The notes below the pieces were generated by a model, which was given only the letters and a program-made list of their open reading frames with translations, had not been told where the DNA came from and did not search any database. A program made the translations under genes and the position numbers. A stretch of 64,000 nt of DNA from Wenjunlia tyrosinilytica (GTDB lineage Bacteria; Actinomycetota; Actinomycetes; Streptomycetales; Streptomycetaceae), in contig NZ_BMMS01000025.1 of assembly GCF_014646055.1 (NCBI RefSeq), forward strand, positions 1 through 64,000, given 5' to 3'. Below, piece after piece: positions 8,989 through 56,541 of the stretch; the stretch's first letter is position 1, and each line of letters opens with the position of its first letter.

Positions 8989-10719
8989 GTGCTCGAAGAG
9001 ATGCGGATACAGCGGCTTGGCGTGATCGACGACGCCGTGGTCGAGCTTTCGCCCGGATTCACGGCCGTCACCGGGGAGACCGGCGCCGGCAAGACCATGG
9101 TGGTCACCAGCCTCGGTCTCCTGCTCGGCGGCCGCGCGGACGCGGGGCTGGTCCGGATCGGCGCCAAGGCGGCGGTCGTCGAGGGCCGGATCGCGGTCGA
9201 CGGGGACTCCCCGCTGGCCGCTCGGGTCGAGGAGGCCGGCGGCGAGCTGGACGAGGGCGCGCTCCTGATCAGCCGCACCGTCTCGGCCGAGGGCCGGTCC
9301 CGCGCGCACATGGGCGGGCGGGCGGTGCCGGTCGGGCTGCTGTCCGAGCTCGGCGAGGAACTGGTGGCCGTGCACGGCCAGACCGACCAGCAGGGGCTGC
9401 TGCGCCCCGCACGGCAGCGCGAGGCCCTGGACCGGTACGCGGGTGACGCGGTGGCCAAACCACTGGCGAAGTACGCGGCCGCCCACCGCAGGCTGCGCGA
9501 CGTCGTGGCGGAGCTGGAGCAGCTCACCACCCGGGCGCGCGACCGTGCCCAGGAGGCCGGTCTGCTGCGCTTCGGCCTCGAGGAGATCGCCGCGGCGGAG
9601 CCCCGTTCCGGAGAGGACGCGGAGCTCGCGGCCGAGGCCGAGCGCCTGGGCCACGCGGAGGCTCTGGCCTCCGCGGCGACCACCGCCCACACCGCGCTGC
9701 TGGGCAACCCGGAGGATCCGGAGGGTGTGGACGCCAACGCCCTGGTGGCGGGGGCCCGTCGGGCACTGGACGCGGTCCGCCTGCACGATCCGGCGCTGGC
9801 CTCGCTCGCCGACCGGCTGGGCGAGGTGGGGTATCTGCTCTCCGACGTGGCCGGGGATCTGGCCGGGTACGCCGACGACCTGGACGCCGATCCGCTGCGG
9901 CTGGCCGCGGTGGAGGAACGGCGGGCGGTGCTGTCCCAGCTCACCCGCAAGTACGGGGAGTCGATCGACGAGGTGCTGGCGTGGGCCGAGCAGGGCGCGG
10001 TCCGTCTGAACGAGCTCGAGGGCGACGACGACCGGATCGGGGAGCTGGCCGCCGAGCGGGACGGACTCCGTGCCGAACTCGGCGAGCTGGCCCAGGCGTT
10101 GACCGACGCGCGGACGGCGGCGGCGGAGCGTTTCGCCGCCGCGGTCACCGCGGAGCTGGGTGAGCTGGCGATGCCGCACGCCCGGGTGGCGGTGGCGGTG
10201 CGGCAGACCGAGGACGCGGAAGGGCTCGAGGTCGGCGGCCGCACCGTGGCGTTCGGCGCCTCGGGTGTGGACGAGGTGGAATTGCAGCTGGCCCCGCACC
10301 CGGGGGCTCCCGCGCGGCCGATCGCCAAGGGCGCCTCGGGCGGTGAGCTGTCGCGGGTCATGCTGGCCGTGGAGGTGGTGTTCGCGGGCTCGGACCCGGT
10401 GCCCACCTACCTGTTCGACGAGGTGGACGCCGGCGTGGGCGGCAAGGCGGCGGTCGAGGTGGGGCGCCGCCTCGCCAGGCTCGCCAAGTCCGCCCAGGTC
10501 ATCGTGGTCACCCATCTGCCGCAGGTCGCGGCCTTCGCGGACCGGCACCTGGTGGTGGTGAAGACCGACGACGGCACGGTCACCCGAAGCGGTGTGCAGG
10601 CCATGGAGGGGGAGGACCGGGTGCGGGAGCTGTCGCGCATGCTCGCCGGGCTCGAGGACTCCGAGCTGGGCCGGGCGCACGCCGAGGAACTGCTGGAGGC
10701 GGCACGCGCGCCGCGGTGA
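8989..10719 (+). CDS. recN: DNA repair protein RecN
   Basis: A 576-residue SMC-like ATPase of double-strand-break repair. Walker A is TGETGAGKTMVVTS near residue 30. A long helical coiled-coil region fills the middle. The C-terminal lobe has the signature KGASGGELSRVMLAVE, Walker B YLFDEVDAGVGG and the VVTHLPQVAAF motif. The GTG at 8989 (VLEEMRIQ) is preferred because an AAGG sits 8 bases upstream; a GTG six bases earlier is only 2 bases from it. The frame is open further upstream but shows no conserved sequence. Confidence 0.95.
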   Translation: MLEEMRIQRLGVIDDAVVELSPGFTAVTGETGAGKTMVVTSLGLLLGGRADAGLVRIGAKAAVVEGRIAVDGDSPLAARVEEAGGELDEGALLISRTVSAEGRSRAHMGGRAVPVGLLSELGEELVAVHGQTDQQGLLRPARQREALDRYAGDAVAKPLAKYAAAHRRLRDVVAELEQLTTRARDRAQEAGLLRFGLEEIAAAEPRSGEDAELAAEAERLGHAEALASAATTAHTALLGNPEDPEGVDANALVAGARRALDAVRLHDPALASLADRLGEVGYLLSDVAGDLAGYADDLDADPLRLAAVEERRAVLSQLTRKYGESIDEVLAWAEQGAVRLNELEGDDDRIGELAAERDGLRAELGELAQALTDARTAAAERFAAAVTAELGELAMPHARVAVAVRQTEDAEGLEVGGRTVAFGASGVDEVELQLAPHPGAPARPIAKGASGGELSRVMLAVEVVFAGSDPVPTYLFDEVDAGVGGKAAVEVGRRLARLAKSAQVIVVTHLPQVAAFADRHLVVVKTDDGTVTRSGVQAMEGEDRVRELSRMLAGLEDSELGRAHAEELLEAARAPR

Positions 10720-43574: not shown

Positions 43575-43661
43575 CTCTCAACGACTGGGGCCTCTCAGCG
43601 GCTCGGGGTTCTCAGCGGCTCGGGGCTCTCACCGGGTGGGGGGCTCTCACCGGGTGGGGGC
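43575..43661. repeat. 17-18-bp tandem repeat (x5) overlapping the CBS gene stop codon
   Basis: On the + strand five units begin [CT]TCTCA: 43575-43591, 43592-43608, 43609-43625, 43626-43643 and 43644-43661. The last unit contains the final codons and stop (Pro-Thr-Arg-TGA, read on the - strand) of the CBS gene. Every unit keeps the TGA. Neighbouring units are nearly identical in pairs. Confidence 0.85.
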
Positions 43662-44066
43662 CGCGGCGCTGATGTCCGCGAGCGGGGAGTCCGGTTCCTC
43701 GGTCTGGGCGAGATCACCGATGGTCACGATGCCCACCGGGCGGCCGTCGGCCACGACCGGCAGCCTGCGCACCGCGTGCTTGCGCATCAGCCGCGCCGCG
43801 TCGTAGGTGCTGTCCTCCGGTGAGATCGTCACGGCGGGGGAGGAGAAGACCGCTCCGGCCGAGACGGACTGGGGGTCGGTCCCCTCCGCCACCACCCGCA
43901 CCGTGATGTCCCGGTCGGTGACCATCCCCAGGACGTCGTCCCCGCGGGCCACCACGACGTCGCCGATGTCATGGTCGCGCATCAGGCGGGCGACCTCCAC
44001 CAAGGACGCTTGGGGCTGCACCGCCGTCACGCCCATCGTCATCACTTCGCGTACCGCGTGTGGCAT
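43647..44066 (-). CDS. CBS-domain-pair protein
   Basis: A 139-residue cytoplasmic protein made of two CBS domains: AVREVMTMGVTAVQPQASLV with IGDVVVARGDDVLGMVTDRDI, and FSSPAVTISPEDSTYDAARL with VRRLPVVADGRPVGIVTIGD. Such free-standing CBS pairs bind adenine nucleotides and are common stress genes in Streptomyces. GGAGG lies about 8 bases before ATG 44066. A SigB-type promoter sequence sits just upstream, divergent from that of the Bpa-like gene. Confidence 0.93.
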   Translation of the reverse strand: MPHAVREVMTMGVTAVQPQASLVEVARLMRDHDIGDVVVARGDDVLGMVTDRDITVRVVAEGTDPQSVSAGAVFSSPAVTISPEDSTYDAARLMRKHAVRRLPVVADGRPVGIVTIGDLAQTEEPDSPLADISAAAPTR

Positions 44067-44097: not shown

Positions 44098-44122
44098 GTA
44101 CCCGCGACCGGCTCGGATATGC
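44098..44122 (-). promoter_or_regulatory. SigB-type promoter of the CBS gene
   Basis: On the - strand GCAT (44122-44119), 15 bases, then GGGTAC (44103-44098). This fits the GNNT-N14-16-GGGTAC/T pattern known for the Streptomyces SigB-family regulon. Transcription would start around 44090, about 25 bases before the CBS start codon, leaving room for its GGAGG. Confidence 0.65.
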
Positions 44123-44172: not shown

Positions 44173-44197
44173 GTTTTCCGGGTCGGTCGCCGGGTAC
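44173..44197 (+). promoter_or_regulatory. SigB-type promoter of the Bpa-like gene
   Basis: GTTT (44173-44176), 15 bases, GGGTAC (44192-44197): an optimal match to the SigB-type consensus. The ATG of the gene is only 9 bases past the -10 box, so the transcript should begin at or within a few bases of the start codon. Confidence 0.75.
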
Positions 44198-44206
44198 TCC
44201 GGGGCC

Positions 44207-44581
44207 ATGACCGACCAAGTTGCCGAGCCCGACCGAGTGGTGCGGATAGAGGAGATGGTCAAGGAGCTGCTGGGGGAGGCCCGGGCCAGACCGCTGGACG
44301 AAGCGGGCCGTATGTGGCTGACGGCGAGTCTGCGCCGGGCGGTCGGCGAGCTCGAGCAGGCTCTCGCCCCCGAGCTGATAGAGGAACTGGGCAGGCTCGC
44401 CGAGCCGTTCGCCGATCCCGAGGCGCCGAGCCATTCCGAGCTTCTGCTGGCCCAGGCGCAGCTCGTGGGCTGGCTGGAAGGGCTCTGGGCTGGGATCAGG
44501 ACGTCCTTGACGCTCAGTAAGACGGAAGTCACCCAGCCCGCGAGAGGACTGTCGATGCCCGACGGCGGAAGTTACCTGTGA
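44207..44581 (+). CDS. Short paralogue of bacterial proteasome activator Bpa (PafE)
   Basis: A 124-residue protein. Residues 8-104 match the helical Bpa core: RVVRIEEMVKELLGEARARP, LDEAGRMWLTASL, LAPELIEELGRLAEPF, and LLLAQAQLVGWLEGLWAGI. The protein ends DGGSYL; Bpa of Mycobacterium ends GQYL, the motif that docks into the proteasome alpha-ring pockets. The acidic N-terminal region of typical Bpa (about 45 residues) is missing. Bpa forms a dodecameric ring that opens the 20S proteasome without ATP. This copy may be a stress-induced alternative. No ribosome binding site is visible, consistent with a leaderless mRNA. Confidence 0.82.
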   Translation: MTDQVAEPDRVVRIEEMVKELLGEARARPLDEAGRMWLTASLRRAVGELEQALAPELIEELGRLAEPFADPEAPSHSELLLAQAQLVGWLEGLWAGIRTSLTLSKTEVTQPARGLSMPDGGSYL

Positions 44582-50236: not shown

Positions 50237-51022
50237 ATGCCTACCACCGAGAAGAGGCGGCGCCGCCACGACGACACGCCCGACACGGCGGGCGACTTCC
50301 GAAGGCTCGCCGAGATGCCCGACGGTCCGGAGCGCGACGAGCTCCGCAGAACCATCACCTGTGCCTGGATGCCGGTCGCCGAGCGGCTGGCCAGGCGCTT
50401 TCGCAATCGGGGAGAGAGCCAGGAGGACCTGGTCCAGGTGGCCTGCCTGGGCATGGTCAAGGCCGTCGCCCGCTACGACCCCGACCACGGCAGCGCCTTC
50501 GAGTCGTTCGCCATCCCCACCGTCGTCGGCGAGCTGAAGCGCCACTTCCGTGACCATCTGTGGAGTGTGCACGTGCCGAGGCGGGTGCAGGAGCTGCGCA
50601 ACAGGACCAGGTCGGCACGGGTGGAGCTCCTCCAGGAACTGGAGGGCCGAGGCCCGACCGTCAGCGAGCTCGCCGGGCACACCGGGCTGTCCGAGGACGA
50701 CGTCAAGACAGGGATGGAGGCGCACGACGCCTACAGCACGGTCTCGCTCGATGCCCCGATGCCCGGTCTGGACGACTTCTCGCTCGGCGACACCCTCGGC
50801 GACTCCGACCCCACGATGGACCTCGTCGTCAACCGCGAGGCCCTCAAACCGCTGCTCGCCGAGCTTCCCGAGCGGGAGCTGCACATCCTCTACCTGCGCT
50901 TCTTCAAGGACCTCACCCAGACGCAGATCGCGAACATCTGCGGTATCTCCCAGATGCATGTGTCGCGGCTGATCAGCCGCACCTGCGAGAACCTGCGCAC
51001 CGGGCTCCTCGCCGACGCATGA
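50237..51022 (+). CDS. SigB/SigF-family RNA polymerase sigma factor
   Basis: A 261-residue sigma-70 factor of group 3. Region 2 is QEDLVQVACLGMVKAVARYD with FESFAIPTVVGELKRHFRDH. Region 3 includes VPRRVQELRNRTRSA. Region 4 is LPERELHILYLRFFKDLTQT with IANICGISQMHVSRLISRT. This fits the SigB/F/G/H group of Streptomyces, which responds to osmotic and other stress and is held by RsbW-like anti-sigma factors. No anti-sigma or anti-anti-sigma gene is adjacent. CGGGAGA lies upstream of ATG 50237. It is convergent with the gas-vesicle operon. Confidence 0.95.
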   Translation: MPTTEKRRRRHDDTPDTAGDFRRLAEMPDGPERDELRRTITCAWMPVAERLARRFRNRGESQEDLVQVACLGMVKAVARYDPDHGSAFESFAIPTVVGELKRHFRDHLWSVHVPRRVQELRNRTRSARVELLQELEGRGPTVSELAGHTGLSEDDVKTGMEAHDAYSTVSLDAPMPGLDDFSLGDTLGDSDPTMDLVVNREALKPLLAELPERELHILYLRFFKDLTQTQIANICGISQMHVSRLISRTCENLRTGLLADA

Positions 51023-51195: not shown

Positions 51196-51498
51196 TCAGT
51201 CCCGGGGGAGCAGGGGGCCGAGCGGTCCCAGGTCGAGGTTGAGGTCCTCGGGCTCGAAACCGTAGCGCTCGCGCAGCTCCGTCATCCGCTCGTCCAGCAG
51301 CATCAGCGTGAGTCCGATCCGCTCCTCCTGGTCCTCGTTCAGATCCCCCTCGTCCACGCGGCGCAGCGCCTGGCGTTCCATCAGCTGCCGCAGCAGCTCC
51401 ACGACGGTCAGCACGAGCTTCATCAGATCCCGCTCGACGGTGTCGCGGTCGGTGTCCAGACGCCGGGGGAGGCGGTAGGTCTCGTTCATGGGTGTCAC
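51196..51498 (-). CDS. gvpK: Gas vesicle protein GvpK
   Basis: A 100-residue protein matching GvpK: TVERDLMKLVLTVVELLRQL, then MERQALRRVDEGDL and GLTLMLLDERMTELRERYGF. Last gene of the operon. The GTG start overlaps the gvpS stop; a later ATG (51489) is possible. GvpK is an accessory protein needed for vesicle formation in other bacteria. Confidence 0.94.
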   Translation of the reverse strand: MTPMNETYRLPRRLDTDRDTVERDLMKLVLTVVELLRQLMERQALRRVDEGDLNEDQEERIGLTLMLLDERMTELRERYGFEPEDLNLDLGPLGPLLPRD

Positions 51499-51683
51499 CG
51501 GTCCCAGGGCGTGGCCATGTCGGCCTTGACGGACGTGATCAGGGCATTGAGCGAGACACGGACCAGGTCCACGTCCGCGATGCTCAGGGTGAGATCGCCC
51601 GTGATGACCACGCCTCCGGCGAGGAGCCGGTCGAGGAGGTCGACCAGGGCGATCTCGCGGCTCGCGAGGGCGGGCTCGGTCAT
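51495..51683 (-). CDS. gvpS: Gas vesicle protein GvpS (GvpA/GvpJ family)
   Basis: A 62-residue protein of the GvpA fold: ALVDLLDRLLAGGVVITGDL then ADVDLVRVSLNALITSV. It is the shortest GvpA-type protein in the operon. Overlaps gvpL (ATGA) and gvpK. Confidence 0.92.
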   Translation of the reverse strand: MTEPALASREIALVDLLDRLLAGGVVITGDLTLSIADVDLVRVSLNALITSVKADMATPWDR

Positions 51684-52522
51684 CGGCTGGGCTCTCTCTC
51701 CTCGACGCTCTCGACGGCGGCGAACGAGTACGGCGCCCAGGGTCCCGTCAGCTCCACCCGCACGGCGCTCTCGCCCACGCCGAACTCCCGCACCCTGGCG
51801 GAGAACTCGTCACCACGGGAGCGAGGCACGAGGTAGGCGGCGTTGAGCACGTTCTCGCCCCGCGCACCGGACAGCCTCGGGTCCTGGGGGCGGTGGTGGC
51901 GCGCGTCCTCGGCGAGTCCGCGCAGCTCGGCGTCCACCCGGCGGCTCATCTCCTCCGCGCGTCGGCGGCCGCTGTCCCGTTCCCGCCGCAGGCGCAGGCG
52001 TTGTTCCAGATAGGCCCGGCCGCTGACGGGGCGGGAGGACGACGACTCACCGGCGGACGATGCGCAGGAGGTGGAGGCGGTGGAAGCCGAGGCCGGGGTG
52101 CTGGTGGCCGGGGTGCTCGTGGCCGGGGCGGACGGCACGGCGTAGACCTTGACCCCCCACTCCATGCGGCCGTCGACCGAAGCCAGAACCGCGGCGAACT
52201 CCTCCCGCCGCTCCCGCAGCACCTCCCGCACCCGCTGGTGGTCGCGGTAGACGGTGGCCAGGCGCAGCGGGAGCACGGTGGCGTGGTCGGCGAGCGTGTC
52301 CACGACCCCGTGGTGGGCCCTGGCCATCGCCTCGAGGCGGGTCAGGTCCTCCAACTGCGCACGCAGCGCCCGTTCGTCGAACTCGTGGTCGGGCACCTCG
52401 CTGACAACGCCCACCAGGTCGCCTTCGAGGACGGTGGACACGGTCGCACCCCCGACACCGCGCAGACCCTCCACCGAGGGCCTGCCCGGTCCGGGGACCA
52501 CGGCGTACAGGTAGCAGCTCAT
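51680..52522 (-). CDS. gvpL: Gas vesicle protein GvpL (GvpL/GvpF family)
   Basis: A 280-residue protein. MSCYLYAVVPGPGRPSVEGL, VLPLRLATVYRDHQRV and the end VRVELTGPWAPYSFAAVE are GvpL/F hallmarks. An insertion of Ala/Ser/Thr repeats (ATSTPATSTPASAS, residues about 135-165) interrupts the middle. ATG 52522 begins the conserved part and overlaps gvpJ. Confidence 0.94.
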   Translation of the reverse strand: MSCYLYAVVPGPGRPSVEGLRGVGGATVSTVLEGDLVGVVSEVPDHEFDERALRAQLEDLTRLEAMARAHHGVVDTLADHATVLPLRLATVYRDHQRVREVLRERREEFAAVLASVDGRMEWGVKVYAVPSAPATSTPATSTPASASTASTSCASSAGESSSSRPVSGRAYLEQRLRLRRERDSGRRRAEEMSRRVDAELRGLAEDARHHRPQDPRLSGARGENVLNAAYLVPRSRGDEFSARVREFGVGESAVRVELTGPWAPYSFAAVESVEEREPSR

Positions 52523-52920
52523 GTCTCCTCCCGCTGCACCGACTGCGTGTGTGCCGACTGGTCCGGTGCCTGCTGTCCCTGCGCCCGCTGTCCCGATTCG
52601 AGGGCGGCCAGACGGGCGCGCAGTTCCCGGTTCTCCTCGGCGAGGCCGTGCCGATCGGCTCCGGACGACAGGGCCGGGTCGTGCTCCCACCAGTCGATGC
52701 CCATCTCCCTGGCCTTGTCGACCGAGGCCACGAGCAGCCGCAGCTTGATGGTGAGCAGTTCGATGTCGAGAAGGTTGATCTTGATGTCGCCCGCGATGAC
52801 GATGCCCTTGTCGAGCACCCTCTCCAGGATGTCGGCGAGGTTCGCGCCACCGCCGCTGCCGTACGGGTCCGGCAGGCGCTCTGACACGGAGCCGAACGGC
52901 CTCGGCGTCGGATTCGTCAC
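52519..52920 (-). CDS. gvpJ: Gas vesicle protein GvpJ (GvpA family)
   Basis: A 133-residue protein. Residues about 27-80 are the GvpA-type core (LADILERVLDKGIVIAGDIK, LDIELLTIKLRLLVASVDKA). The C-terminal third is Gln/Ala/Arg-rich. GvpJ is a minor shell or nucleation component in other organisms. Confidence 0.93.
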   Translation of the reverse strand: MTNPTPRPFGSVSERLPDPYGSGGGANLADILERVLDKGIVIAGDIKINLLDIELLTIKLRLLVASVDKAREMGIDWWEHDPALSSGADRHGLAEENRELRARLAALESGQRAQGQQAPDQSAHTQSVQREET

Positions 52921-52935
52921 GGTCCTGCTTCCCTC

Positions 52936-54090
52936 CTACCGGGAGGCGTGCTCGCGTTCACGCTCGTGCTCCGGCTCTTCCTCGTACTCGTCGTACTCGT
53001 CCTCCACCTCGTCCTCGGGGATCTCCTCCTCGGCGGCCTCCGCCTCGTCCGCAGCGGCCTCGTCCTCGGGCGCCTCGTCGTACTCGGCCTCGTCGTCGTA
53101 CCCGTCGTCTTCGGCGTCCTCGGCGTCCTCGGGACCGTGCTCGTCCTCGACGTCGCCGTCGTCCGCCGCCTCGTCCTCCGCCGCCTCGTCGTCCGCGTAC
53201 GCGTCGTCCTCGCCGTAGTCCTCGGGCTCCTCGCCGCCGTACTCCTCGCGGTCCTCGTGCTCCTGCTCGCGGGCCTCCTCCTCGGCCACGACCTCGTCGT
53301 GGTCGCGCACGACCTCGCCGTCGCGGATCTCCCCGCGCCAGCCGCCGGTCGCCTCGCCGCGCATCATCACGAACCGCCGGAAGTGCTTCAGATCGAGCCG
53401 GGCGCGGCGGCCCTGGGCACGCCAGATGTTCCCGGTCTTCTCGAACAGGCCCTTCGGGTAGTACTGGATGACCAGCAGCACCTCGGTGAGGTTGTCGCCG
53501 AGCGGGTGGAAGGTGACAACGCCCTTCGACGTGCCCTTGGCGCCCTCCGACGTCCACGCGATGCGCTCGTCGGGTATCTGCTCGGTGGTGTTCGCCTTCC
53601 AGCTCCGGTTGGACCAGAAGATCTTCATCCGCCAGTTGGACGAGGTGTCGTCCGAGGTCTCCACGCCCTGCACGCCCTTGGCGAAGGTGCTGAACTCCTG
53701 GAACTGCGTCCACTGGTTGTACGCCTCGCGCACGGGAACGCCGACCCGGATGTCCTCGACGATGGTGACGAACTTGCTTCCTCCGCCACCGCCCTTGCGC
53801 TTGCCGCCGAGGCTCTTGAACGCCTGCGTGACCTTGTCCTTGAGGTTCCCGGCGCCCACCTCGACGGCGGAGCGGACCGGGCCCTTGCCGTCGGCGAGCT
53901 TGCGGCCGCCTTCGAGCGCCATCTTGGCCAGACCGGGGCTGTTGCCCTCGGCCACGTCGTTGAGCTTCGCCGTCGTCTCGCCGAGTTTGCGGCCGGTCGC
54001 CACCAGAAGCCGCTCGGCCTGCGCGGCGGCGAACGACGCCGCCTCCTGCTTCAGCCGGTCCACCGCGGGGTTCTTGGTGATGTCAGCCAC
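52936..54090 (-). CDS. gvpZ: GvpZ: SRPBCC-domain gas vesicle operon protein with acidic tail
   Basis: A 384-residue protein. Residues 1-100 are helical and basic. Residues about 105-250 are an SRPBCC/polyketide-cyclase-like fold (FVTIVEDIRVGVPVREAYNQ, VTFHPLGDNLTEVLLVIQYY). Residues about 268-384 are a strongly acidic Glu/Asp tail (EDDAYADDEAAEDEAADDGD). GTG 54090 overlaps the end of gvpY. The name follows the S. coelicolor gene order. Its role is not established. Confidence 0.88.
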   Translation of the reverse strand: MADITKNPAVDRLKQEAASFAAAQAERLLVATGRKLGETTAKLNDVAEGNSPGLAKMALEGGRKLADGKGPVRSAVEVGAGNLKDKVTQAFKSLGGKRKGGGGGSKFVTIVEDIRVGVPVREAYNQWTQFQEFSTFAKGVQGVETSDDTSSNWRMKIFWSNRSWKANTTEQIPDERIAWTSEGAKGTSKGVVTFHPLGDNLTEVLLVIQYYPKGLFEKTGNIWRAQGRRARLDLKHFRRFVMMRGEATGGWRGEIRDGEVVRDHDEVVAEEEAREQEHEDREEYGGEEPEDYGEDDAYADDEAAEDEAADDGDVEDEHGPEDAEDAEDDGYDDEAEYDEAPEDEAAADEAEAAEEEIPEDEVEDEYDEYEEEPEHEREREHASR

Positions 54091-54718
54091 GGCTGCCACC
54101 GCCCGAGTCGGAAGGACGGCGCCGGTTGGCGGCCTTGCTGGGCGCGGCCCTCTTCGCCGCTGTCTTCTTCGCCGCCGTCTTCTTGGCCACGGCCTTCTTG
54201 GCGGGAGCCTTCCGCGCCGGCTTGTCGGGCGTCTTCTTCTCGGCGCGTCTGCCGACCGGCCGCTTCGGCCGCTCCCGGGACGACCGGGCGCTGGACCCAC
54301 CGTCGTCCGGCTCCTCGTCGCCCCGTGCCTCGTAGGCGTCGTCGTGGGGCTTGCGGTCGTCCTCGCGTTCCTCGTCCGCGTTCCGCGACGTGCCGCGGCC
54401 CACGCCGAGGCGGTCACGCACGTCGAGCGTGCGCCCGTGCAGGGAGTCGGCGAGGTTGTTCATCTGCCGGGTCAACAGCGCACCCGTGGCAGCCTTGCCC
54501 ACACCCTTGAGGTCGGTGCGCAGTTGTTCGCCGATCTCAGCGAGTGCCGGATTGGACTTGAGCTGCTCGCTCAGTACGCCCGCGAGCTGTTGCGGGTTCA
54601 GCTTGAGCCGTTTGCCGAGGACCATGGTGCCCAGTCCGAAGGCCAGTTTGGCCTTCTTCGTGCGACCGAGTACGTAGCCTCCACCGACGGCCAGCGCCAG
54701 TGCCAGCCGGTTGTTCAT
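54083..54718 (-). CDS. gvpY: GvpY: gas vesicle operon protein with histone-like basic tail
   Basis: A 211-residue protein with a short hydrophobic N-terminus (NNRLALALAVGGGYVLGRTK) and helical residues to about 110. An acidic patch (DEEREDDRKPHDDAYEARGD) precedes a Lys/Ala/Pro tail (about 155-200, PAKKAVAKKTAAKKTAAKRA), like histone H1. It is translated just before GvpZ, whose tail has the opposite charge. The function in vesicles is unknown. Confidence 0.87.
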   Translation of the reverse strand: MNNRLALALAVGGGYVLGRTKKAKLAFGLGTMVLGKRLKLNPQQLAGVLSEQLKSNPALAEIGEQLRTDLKGVGKAATGALLTRQMNNLADSLHGRTLDVRDRLGVGRGTSRNADEEREDDRKPHDDAYEARGDEEPDDGGSSARSSRERPKRPVGRRAEKKTPDKPARKAPAKKAVAKKTAAKKTAAKRAAPSKAANRRRPSDSGGGSRG

Positions 54719-54739
54719 CGTTTCTCTCCTTGATCGATG

Positions 54740-54997
54740 TCATTGGGGGCGGTGGTGCCGCGCCTGCCACCGCCCTGCGGCCTCGAGCCGGTCCAGAAGC
54801 TCGTCCTCGCGCCGGTCGAACTCGGCCTCGTCGATGAGGCCGCTGGTCAGTTCCCGCTCCAGCCGCTTGAGCTCGCGATGGATCACCGCCGGGTCGTAGT
54901 ACTCCTGCTCCGCGGCGTCGGCGACCTGCCGCAGCACCCAGCCGATCCCCCGGAAGGGGGCGGCGGGAAGCATGAGCACCTCTCCGATCAGGCCCAT
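54740..54997 (-). CDS. gvpG: Gas vesicle protein GvpG
   Basis: An 85-residue protein matching GvpG: MGLIGEVLMLPAAPFRGIGW, then AAEQEYYDPAVIHRELKRLE and LIDEAEFDRREDELLDRLEA. ATG 54997 lies 5 bp after the gvpF stop. Confidence 0.94.
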   Translation of the reverse strand: MGLIGEVLMLPAAPFRGIGWVLRQVADAAEQEYYDPAVIHRELKRLERELTSGLIDEAEFDRREDELLDRLEAAGRWQARHHRPQ

Positions 54998-55002
54998 GGC
55001 GG

Positions 55003-55740
55003 CTAAGCGCTCCGCTGCTGTGCCGACTCGACGAAGCTGTAGGGCGGCAGCGGCCCGTGCAGGCTGAGCTCGAGGTGCTCGTGCTCCTTCTCCAGCCGTG
55101 ACACGGCCGCCCGGAAGTCCTCGGCGGCCGAGGAGTCCACGAGGAACGAGAAGTTGCACAGGCAGTCGCCCATCTCGGGGCCCGGGCTGTCCGCCTCCGC
55201 GAGCGGCCGCAGGCTCTCCCGGATCAGCGCGCTGTCCCTGGTCTCCTGCTCCCGGACGCCGGCCGCGACGAGCTCGCCGAGGCGCAGCCGCTCCTGCTGG
55301 GCGTTTGCCCCTCCCGCGCGGGTACGGGCGTTGAGCTCACGGATGCGCTGGTCGCCGGAGACGATCCGACGCAGGACGATGTCCTCGCGGTGGGTGGCCT
55401 TGACGTTGAACTCCACCCGGCCCTCGAGCTCGCGCAGCCGCTCCGCGTACTGCCCGCCGCGCTCGGCGAGCACCATGCGCACCGCGTCGTCGTGCGGGGA
55501 GAGGCTGCCGAACCGCATCGGCAGGACGGGACCGCAATCGCTCAGCGTGCCAATGACCTTCTGGTGGGCCAGCAGGTCCCGCCGCTTGGCGCGCAGTCCT
55601 TCCGGCGCGTCGCTCACGGCCGCGGCCAGCGCTCCCTTCGTCAGCAGCCGGACGGGGGCGCCGGGTTCGCCGACGCCGAGCAGCTCCTCACTCCCGAAGG
55701 GGTGATCGGCCCGCACGATGGCGTAGACGTACGTGCTCAC
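55003..55740 (-). CDS. gvpF: Gas vesicle protein GvpF (GvpL/GvpF family)
   Basis: A 245-residue GvpL/F protein: [40 protein letters not shown] and the closing [17 protein letters not shown]. The start codon overlaps the gvpA stop. GvpF lies on the inner shell surface in cyanobacteria. Confidence 0.94.
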
Positions 55741-56189
55741 TCGCTCTCCTCCTTGCGGCGCGTGCTGGTGCGACGGGCCCGCGGCCTGGACGTCTCCTTG
55801 TCCTTGTCGTCCGACGACCCCTCACGTGCCTCGCGGAAGGAGTCCGCGACGGTCTGCGCGGCGCCGCTGAGCGCGCCCTTGGTCTTGCCCCGGGCGCCGC
55901 TCTCGGTCATGTCGCCGACGAGCTCGGGCAGGCCGGTGCTCTTGTTGGGGCCGCTCTCCAGGTCGAGGCGGTTGCACGCCTCGGCGAAGCGCAGATAGGT
56001 GTCCACGCTGGCCACCACGATCCGGGCGTCGATCTTGAGGATCTCGATACCGACGAGCGAGACCCGGACGAACACGTCGATCACCAGCCCTCGGTCGAGG
56101 ACGAGTTCCAGCACGTCGTACAGGGAGCTGCTGCCACCCCCGCCACTGCGTGTGTCCGCCGCGTAGCTCTGCTCGGGGACTATGGACAT
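55737..56189 (-). CDS. gvpA: Gas vesicle structural protein GvpA, with extended C-terminus
   Basis: A 150-residue protein. Residues about 20-85 are the GvpA shell core: [20 protein letters not shown], then [20 protein letters not shown] and [14 protein letters not shown]. The 60-residue tail (Ser/Asp/Lys/Arg-rich, ending [12 protein letters not shown]) is much longer than in cyanobacterial GvpA, as is usual in Streptomyces. ATG 56189 begins [13 protein letters not shown]. Confidence 0.94.
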
Positions 56190-56223
56190 GACTTCGATCA
56201 CCTTCTCCGGTGGTAAGTGCGGT

Positions 56224-56541
56224 TCAGCGCCGGTCGGCCCGGCCGCGTTCGTAACGCCCCACGCGCTCCCAGCCCGTGAGCCCGCCATCGCTGTCGACCC
56301 TGACCTCGTAGGTGGCCAGGAGGCTCATCGAGTCCGGTATGCGGCGAAGTTCCATCACCTCGACCCGGAACAACCACCCGTCCTCTTCCTTCCGCATCGC
56401 AGAAACGGCTTCGGGGCGATGTCCCGTCAACTCTTCGAACTGGCCGAGCGCCTCGCGCATCACGCCGTTTGCATCCGCCATGGGCTTGTCTCCCGCGATC
56501 ACCCGCGAGCCTGTGTCGGCATCGTCCCTCGGGGCTGCCAT
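56224..56541 (-). CDS. gvpO: Gas vesicle protein GvpO
   Basis: A 105-residue protein from ATG 56541. It matches GvpO in [39 protein letters not shown] and [20 protein letters not shown]. It is the first gene of the leftward gvp operon. A TTG at 56568 could add nine residues. No SigB-type site with full match was found just upstream; CCGGTATG at about 56616-56623 (- strand) resembles a -10 only. Confidence 0.9.

Follow-up and report, generated by a model that had tools for sequence, protein, structure and literature searches.

Does Wenjunlia tyrosinilytica possess, beside its ordinary Bpa, a second proteasome activator that is produced under the control of a stress sigma factor? The question is raised by a short gene in the window (the whole stretch of 64,000 nucleotides analysed here), which a sequence-only reading had taken for a second proteasome activator under SigB-type control. 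The sequence part of that proposal stood: the genome carries a second Bpa alongside a full set of proteasome genes, the short protein ends in a tail of the docking type, and the SigB-type promoter in front of it is conserved. Judged by its sequence, the short Bpa is a genuine second copy that is under selection and lies behind a promoter of the stress type; its ring formation, docking, gate opening, induction and change of clients we infer. The features on which the argument rests are as follows.

43647..44066, minus strand: divergent CBS-domain gene, 139 aa (Pfam; a similar gene start, judged by eye, lies beside the short Bpa of W. vitaminophila)
44098..44122, minus strand: second SigB-type promoter, GCAT-N15-GGGTAC, 31 bases before the ATG of the CBS gene
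44173..44197, plus strand: SigB-type promoter GTTTTC-N13-GGGTAC, GTTTTCCGGGTCGGTCGCCGGGTAC, 9 bases before the ATG of the short Bpa; motif conserved in the orthologues
44207..44581, plus strand: short Bpa paralogue, 124 aa (open reading frame, Pfam BPA, phmmer, four predicted helices)
44486..44512, plus strand: codons W94, A95, R98 and T102, equivalent to F130, H131, Q134 and F138 of M. tuberculosis Bpa; changed client face of helix 4 (alignment; roles of H131 and F138 from PMC11953334)
44567..44578, plus strand: C-terminal GSYL, a G-x-Y-L motif of the proteasome-docking type (sequence)
50237..51022, plus strand: gene for a SigB-family sigma factor of 261 aa, at a distance of 5.7 kb from the short Bpa

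The reading frame runs from the ATG at 44207 to a stop at 44581 and ends in DGGSYL, and the earlier description of a short Bpa-like protein with this C-terminus was confirmed by two profile and sequence searches. The Pfam BPA profile (PF10759, Bpa/PafE family) matched residues 2-105 with an E-value of 3.5e-36 and 124.6 bits (cut-off 29.5), and the phmmer hits to seven different chain sequences of Bpa/PafE had E-values between 9e-27 and 9e-25. The alignment to the solved Mycobacterium Bpa/PafE chains is free of gaps, and adding 36 to a residue number of the short Bpa gives the equivalent position in M. tuberculosis Bpa. A search of NCBIfam returned no match for the short Bpa; this is uninformative because the genome's full-length copy was not matched either. 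The sequence-only reading had noted a missing N-terminal region. Approximately 40 N-terminal residues are indeed absent relative to the main Bpa of the same genome (counted from the start chosen for the main copy), but the stretch that joins helix 4 to the tail is also shorter, by approximately 17 residues, such that 37 residues extend from G124 to the end in the short copy versus 54 in the main copy.

Is the characteristic fold retained in so short a protein? AlphaFold2, supplied with a five-sequence alignment, predicted four helices (8-27, 32-52, 55-69 and 76-109) with a mean pLDDT of 79 and a disordered tail. In a Foldseek search with the predicted monomer, all eight matches at E up to 0.001 were Bpa (rmsd 4.5-4.9, TM about 0.5). 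The predicted model thus contains the four helices of a Bpa protomer, in agreement with the sequence-only reading, and its superposition on Bpa is moderate. The VIA comparison with Bpa (Z 9.1, rmsd 2.7 over 100 residues) adds no support for the fold, because many unrelated helical bundles rank above Bpa. Support for the Bpa fold of the short copy comes chiefly from sequence homology.

Another question is whether the genome encodes a regular Bpa and a proteasome on which either protein could act. A full-length Bpa with the C-terminus SGPYL is present on another contig (G000:C6:8603), and its core is 56% identical to that of the short copy. One stretch of contig 3 encodes ARC (ending in TGQYL), Dop, Pup (ending in GGQ), PrcB, PrcA and PafA, i.e., a complete Pup-proteasome locus; thus, the objection that the genome might have no proteasome genes, which would have spoken against an activator, falls away. 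The alpha-subunit positions R26 and K52 have been reported to contact Y173 and L174 of Bpa (PMC11953334). In the PrcA of this genome, both residues (R26 and K52) are present, as counted by hand on the sequence and not read from an alignment to the Mycobacterium subunit, and with this qualification the genome encodes a 20S proteasome with the pocket residues.

Like the members of the Bpa/PafE family, the short Bpa carries a G-x-Y-L docking motif at its C-terminus. Five further complete short copies were recovered from other genomes (see below), and their tails read GSYL, GTYL or, in one copy, GTFL, so that G-x-[YF]-L is found in 6/6. Between the short Bpa of the window and that of W. vitaminophila, 4/5 of the last residues are identical versus only 1/16 of those immediately preceding them. 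The distance from G124 to the C-terminus amounts to 37-39 residues in the six short copies, compared with 50-78 in 68 main copies.

Which of these differences could affect the choice of clients? The sequence-only reading had pointed to the missing N-terminal part. For the Mycobacterium protein, it has been reported that Bpa is disordered over its first 35 residues, that its helix 4 becomes flexible past Q140, and that H131, F138 and R145 on this helix help to bind the client HspR (Nat Commun 2025, PMC11953334). The N-terminal explanation is therefore not supported, and the telling changes are those of helix 4 and the tail, where client contacts are replaced and the linker is shortened. All six short copies possess W130 and R134, together with A, S or G at 131 and T, M or S at 138, and R145 occurs in none; hence, not one of the three contacts typical of an HspR-degrading Bpa is kept in any of them. 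In the main copies, F130, H131 and Q134 are found in 66/66 aligned sequences (two of 68 were dropped because of different spacing), F138 in 64/66 and R145 in 67/68, the last count excluding the frame-broken L072 and the second copy of G025. Most of these main-copy loci were top-ranking matches of the short protein or of the profile, and they do not represent a random sample. The loss of experimentally tested contacts makes it possible to suggest that the client choice of the short Bpa is altered.

The promoter follows the SigB-type plan, as given in PMC8346170: a GNNT-type -35 hexamer and a GGGTA(C/T/G) -10 element at a spacing of 12-15. GTTT-N15-GGGTA occurs once in the window versus 0.02 expected, and 2/100 shuffled sequences contained one. 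Genome-wide, GTTT-N15-GGGTAC is no commoner (3 sites) than its backwards control (4 sites), and a single occurrence therefore proves little. The weight of the promoter lies in its conservation: in 6/6 short copies, GTTT-N15-GGGTA(C or G) ends 9-10 bases before the ATG at one and the same spacing, with spacers that differ, and each of the 15 of 84 loci containing GTTT-N15-GGGTA (several of these loci overlap) has a short copy just downstream, the 69 others being without the motif. GNNT-N15-GGGTA(C/G) is absent from 20 kb around the main Bpa of this genome and from 19 kb around its proteasome genes. Since the -10 element is so near the ATG, the transcript of the short Bpa is probably leaderless. 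A GTTT -35 element is reported to typify promoters of the sporulation sigma factors SigF, SigH and SigN more than those of SigB, SigL and SigM (PMC8346170, section 2.4), so that the trigger may be developmental; on the promoter sequence, stress and development may both come into question. The main text of that article does not contain the word "proteasome". One of the three genomic GTTT-N15-GGGTAC sites is located around position 1500 of L114, 48 bases before the ATG of an 80-residue frame.

Does the surrounding region carry the same regulatory signature? GNNT-N15-GGGTAC is present six times in the window versus 0.81 expected (0/100 shuffles reach six), and four of the sites are concentrated within 44.1-45.4 kb. 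In the promoter of the CBS-domain gene, the 19 bases around the -10 element are identical in W. vitaminophila, where the short Bpa and a sigma gene 86% identical to that of the window are 3.4 kb apart. Seven SigB-family sigma matches above the cut-off were obtained in the genome as a whole. No SigB-family sigma gene was detected by tblastn near the short Bpa in four Embleya loci of 12-20 kb. A gene neighbourhood common to Wenjunlia and Embleya was considered and rejected: reading through the ORFs at two Embleya loci revealed none, and the gene order differs. Further neighbours in the window include gas-vesicle genes and genes for DUF2795, DUF6158 and DUF6343 proteins. The gas-vesicle genes adjoin the sigma factor gene (51196-56288, minus strand) and include GvpK and two gas-vesicle proteins according to Pfam, as well as further Gvp-like ORFs recognized only by eye.

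The sequence-only reading had spoken of such an activator in Streptomyces, but the short Bpa is not a general feature of that genus. In 394 Streptomycetaceae genomes, 393 gave a Bpa match and seven gave two; a single match was counted as the main copy alone, with inspection of some but not all such genomes. A complete short copy was found in six genomes, namely, 2/2 of Wenjunlia and 4/4 of Embleya, and in no other genus; the second match of G189 consists of fragments and was left out of this count. A survey of 394 genomes of the class yielded 297 matched genomes and three with two matches: W. tyrosinilytica itself and two others (G490 and G694) with second copies of other types. Scanning of named genomes with a DNA pattern of the short type, which misses copies with other residues at those positions, detected Wenjunlia vitaminophila, Embleya scabrispora, Embleya hyalina and Streptomyces sp. 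SID3343, the only strain filed under Streptomyces. An Anaerolinea match of the scan for the W motif overlies an unrelated ORF and was discarded. The short copies of the Embleya group are 142-143 aa long, with approximately 17 more N-terminal residues than the Wenjunlia copies.

Second copies of other kinds were also encountered. Those of G025 (ending in AAYL), G490 (L108; also short, with N at the H131 position, ending in GHYL) and G694 (L109; ending without YL) are of types other than the short one. No SigB-type site was reported upstream of the G490 and G694 copies, and the single one in the G025 stretch is some 6 kb away. In L066, from the same order, a divergent second Bpa (9111-9761, minus strand) is 38% identical to the short Bpa, ends in AAYL and has kept H131 but not F138 and R145.

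In a quick tree built without the remaining second copies and without two aberrant main rows, the six short copies grouped together with an SH-aLRT of 88, and their single origin was not rejected (AU p 0.77). When the other second copies were included, the G025 copy fell inside the short group as a long-branch join; in another tree, the nine short and second copies grouped together with a support of 78. Long branches limit all of these tree results. A phage origin was discarded, since the phage collection yielded nothing and searching viral contigs brought up no relative that could be confirmed. A plasmid origin was likewise discarded: five plasmid records match at <60% identity, and the one examined has the main-type residues F130, H131 and Q134. 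In L084 (Arthrobacter sp. ERGS1:01), a main-type Bpa gene is carried on a 754 kb plasmid.

What, then, could be the function of the short Bpa? On the sequence data, we consider it reasonably probable that it represents a stress-induced alternative ATP-independent proteasome activator with changed client choice. Its production would depend on the activity of a SigB-family sigma factor, either under osmotic stress or during development, and the protein would fold as a Bpa four-helix bundle and form a ring, which in the Bpa/PafE family is a dodecamer. By homology, its G-S-Y-L tails would insert into the pockets of the 20S alpha-ring and the gate would open without ATP, as with Bpa. Because the client face is changed (F130W, H131A/S/G, Q134R, F138T/M/S, R145 lost), HspR-like clients would not be recruited in the same way, and the protein would probably serve other, stress-related clients, with the shortened linker holding the ring closer to the proteasome.

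The same features could be read differently if the short Bpa formed no ring of its own and, under stress, entered the ring of the main Bpa as a subunit that changes client choice or docking geometry. Such mixing would be consistent with the presence of both proteins in 6/6 genomes, with the identity of their cores given above and with the PLDE-to-GW core spacing, which is equal in 6/6 short and 66/68 main copies. However, several core residues that are nearly fixed in the main copies differ (e.g., Q43, K46, H78 and L102), and we regard a mixed ring as rather unlikely. More improbable still is a competitor or plug that docks to the 20S proteasome without recruiting clients and, by displacing ARC or the main Bpa, throttles or re-routes the proteasome under stress: a docking tail that is kept while the known client contacts are lost would suit this role, but the new W94 and R98 are invariant in 6/6, an invariance suggestive of a positive role for this face of helix 4 and not of mere loss.

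Could the gene simply be a decaying, functionless duplicate? It is rare and patchily distributed, the tree branches are long, and dN/dS (NG86) between the two genera reaches 0.37-0.54, with dS about 1 or more, which makes constraint across the genera less clear. Within Wenjunlia, however, dN/dS between the two short copies is 0.11, indicating purifying selection, among the Embleya copies it is 0.17-0.32, and the tail, the promoter and an open frame are kept in 6/6; decay thus appears hardly credible.

If an alternative activator is the correct reading, some streptomycetes might possess two interchangeable ATP-independent caps, one for housekeeping and one controlled by a stress sigma factor and serving different clients. 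We put this forward as a tentative, though quite conceivable, view; if true, bacteria would have a counterpart to the activators that eukaryotic proteasomes can exchange. The promoter, for its part, suggests that stress may redirect the activity of the proteasome. Moreover, a natural Bpa in which the docking tail is kept and exactly the known client contacts are changed offers a ready-made test of ATP-independent substrate choice. No description of a second Bpa was found in the literature searched, which consisted mainly of open-access papers.

Comparison with known systems places the short Bpa as follows. With the Bpa/PafE of M. tuberculosis and other actinobacteria, it has in common the homologous four-helix core, the G-x-Y-L end and the 20S genes in the genome. 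It differs in being without the disordered N-terminal part and approximately 17 pre-tail residues, in the replacement of H131, F138 and R145, in its occurrence as a second copy beside a normal Bpa, and in its SigB-type promoter. The SigB-type promoters found here are equal in plan and spacing to two S. coelicolor promoters presented in PMC8346170, the SigB/SigL-dependent SCO1089p (GTTTCC-N13-GGGTAT) and the SigB-type SCO1566p (GCTTGG-N13-GGGTAG); SCO3167p has N15 in hexamer terms versus N13 in the window promoter, and SCO1089p is the match. An engineered Bpa without linker residues 155-166 likewise carries its docking motif on a shortened linker and is reported to sit on the 20S proteasome untilted (PMC11953334). 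That protein is a laboratory construct of M. tuberculosis Bpa in which residues 131, 138 and 145 are outside the deletion, whereas the short paralogue occurs in nature and has, in addition, a changed client face.
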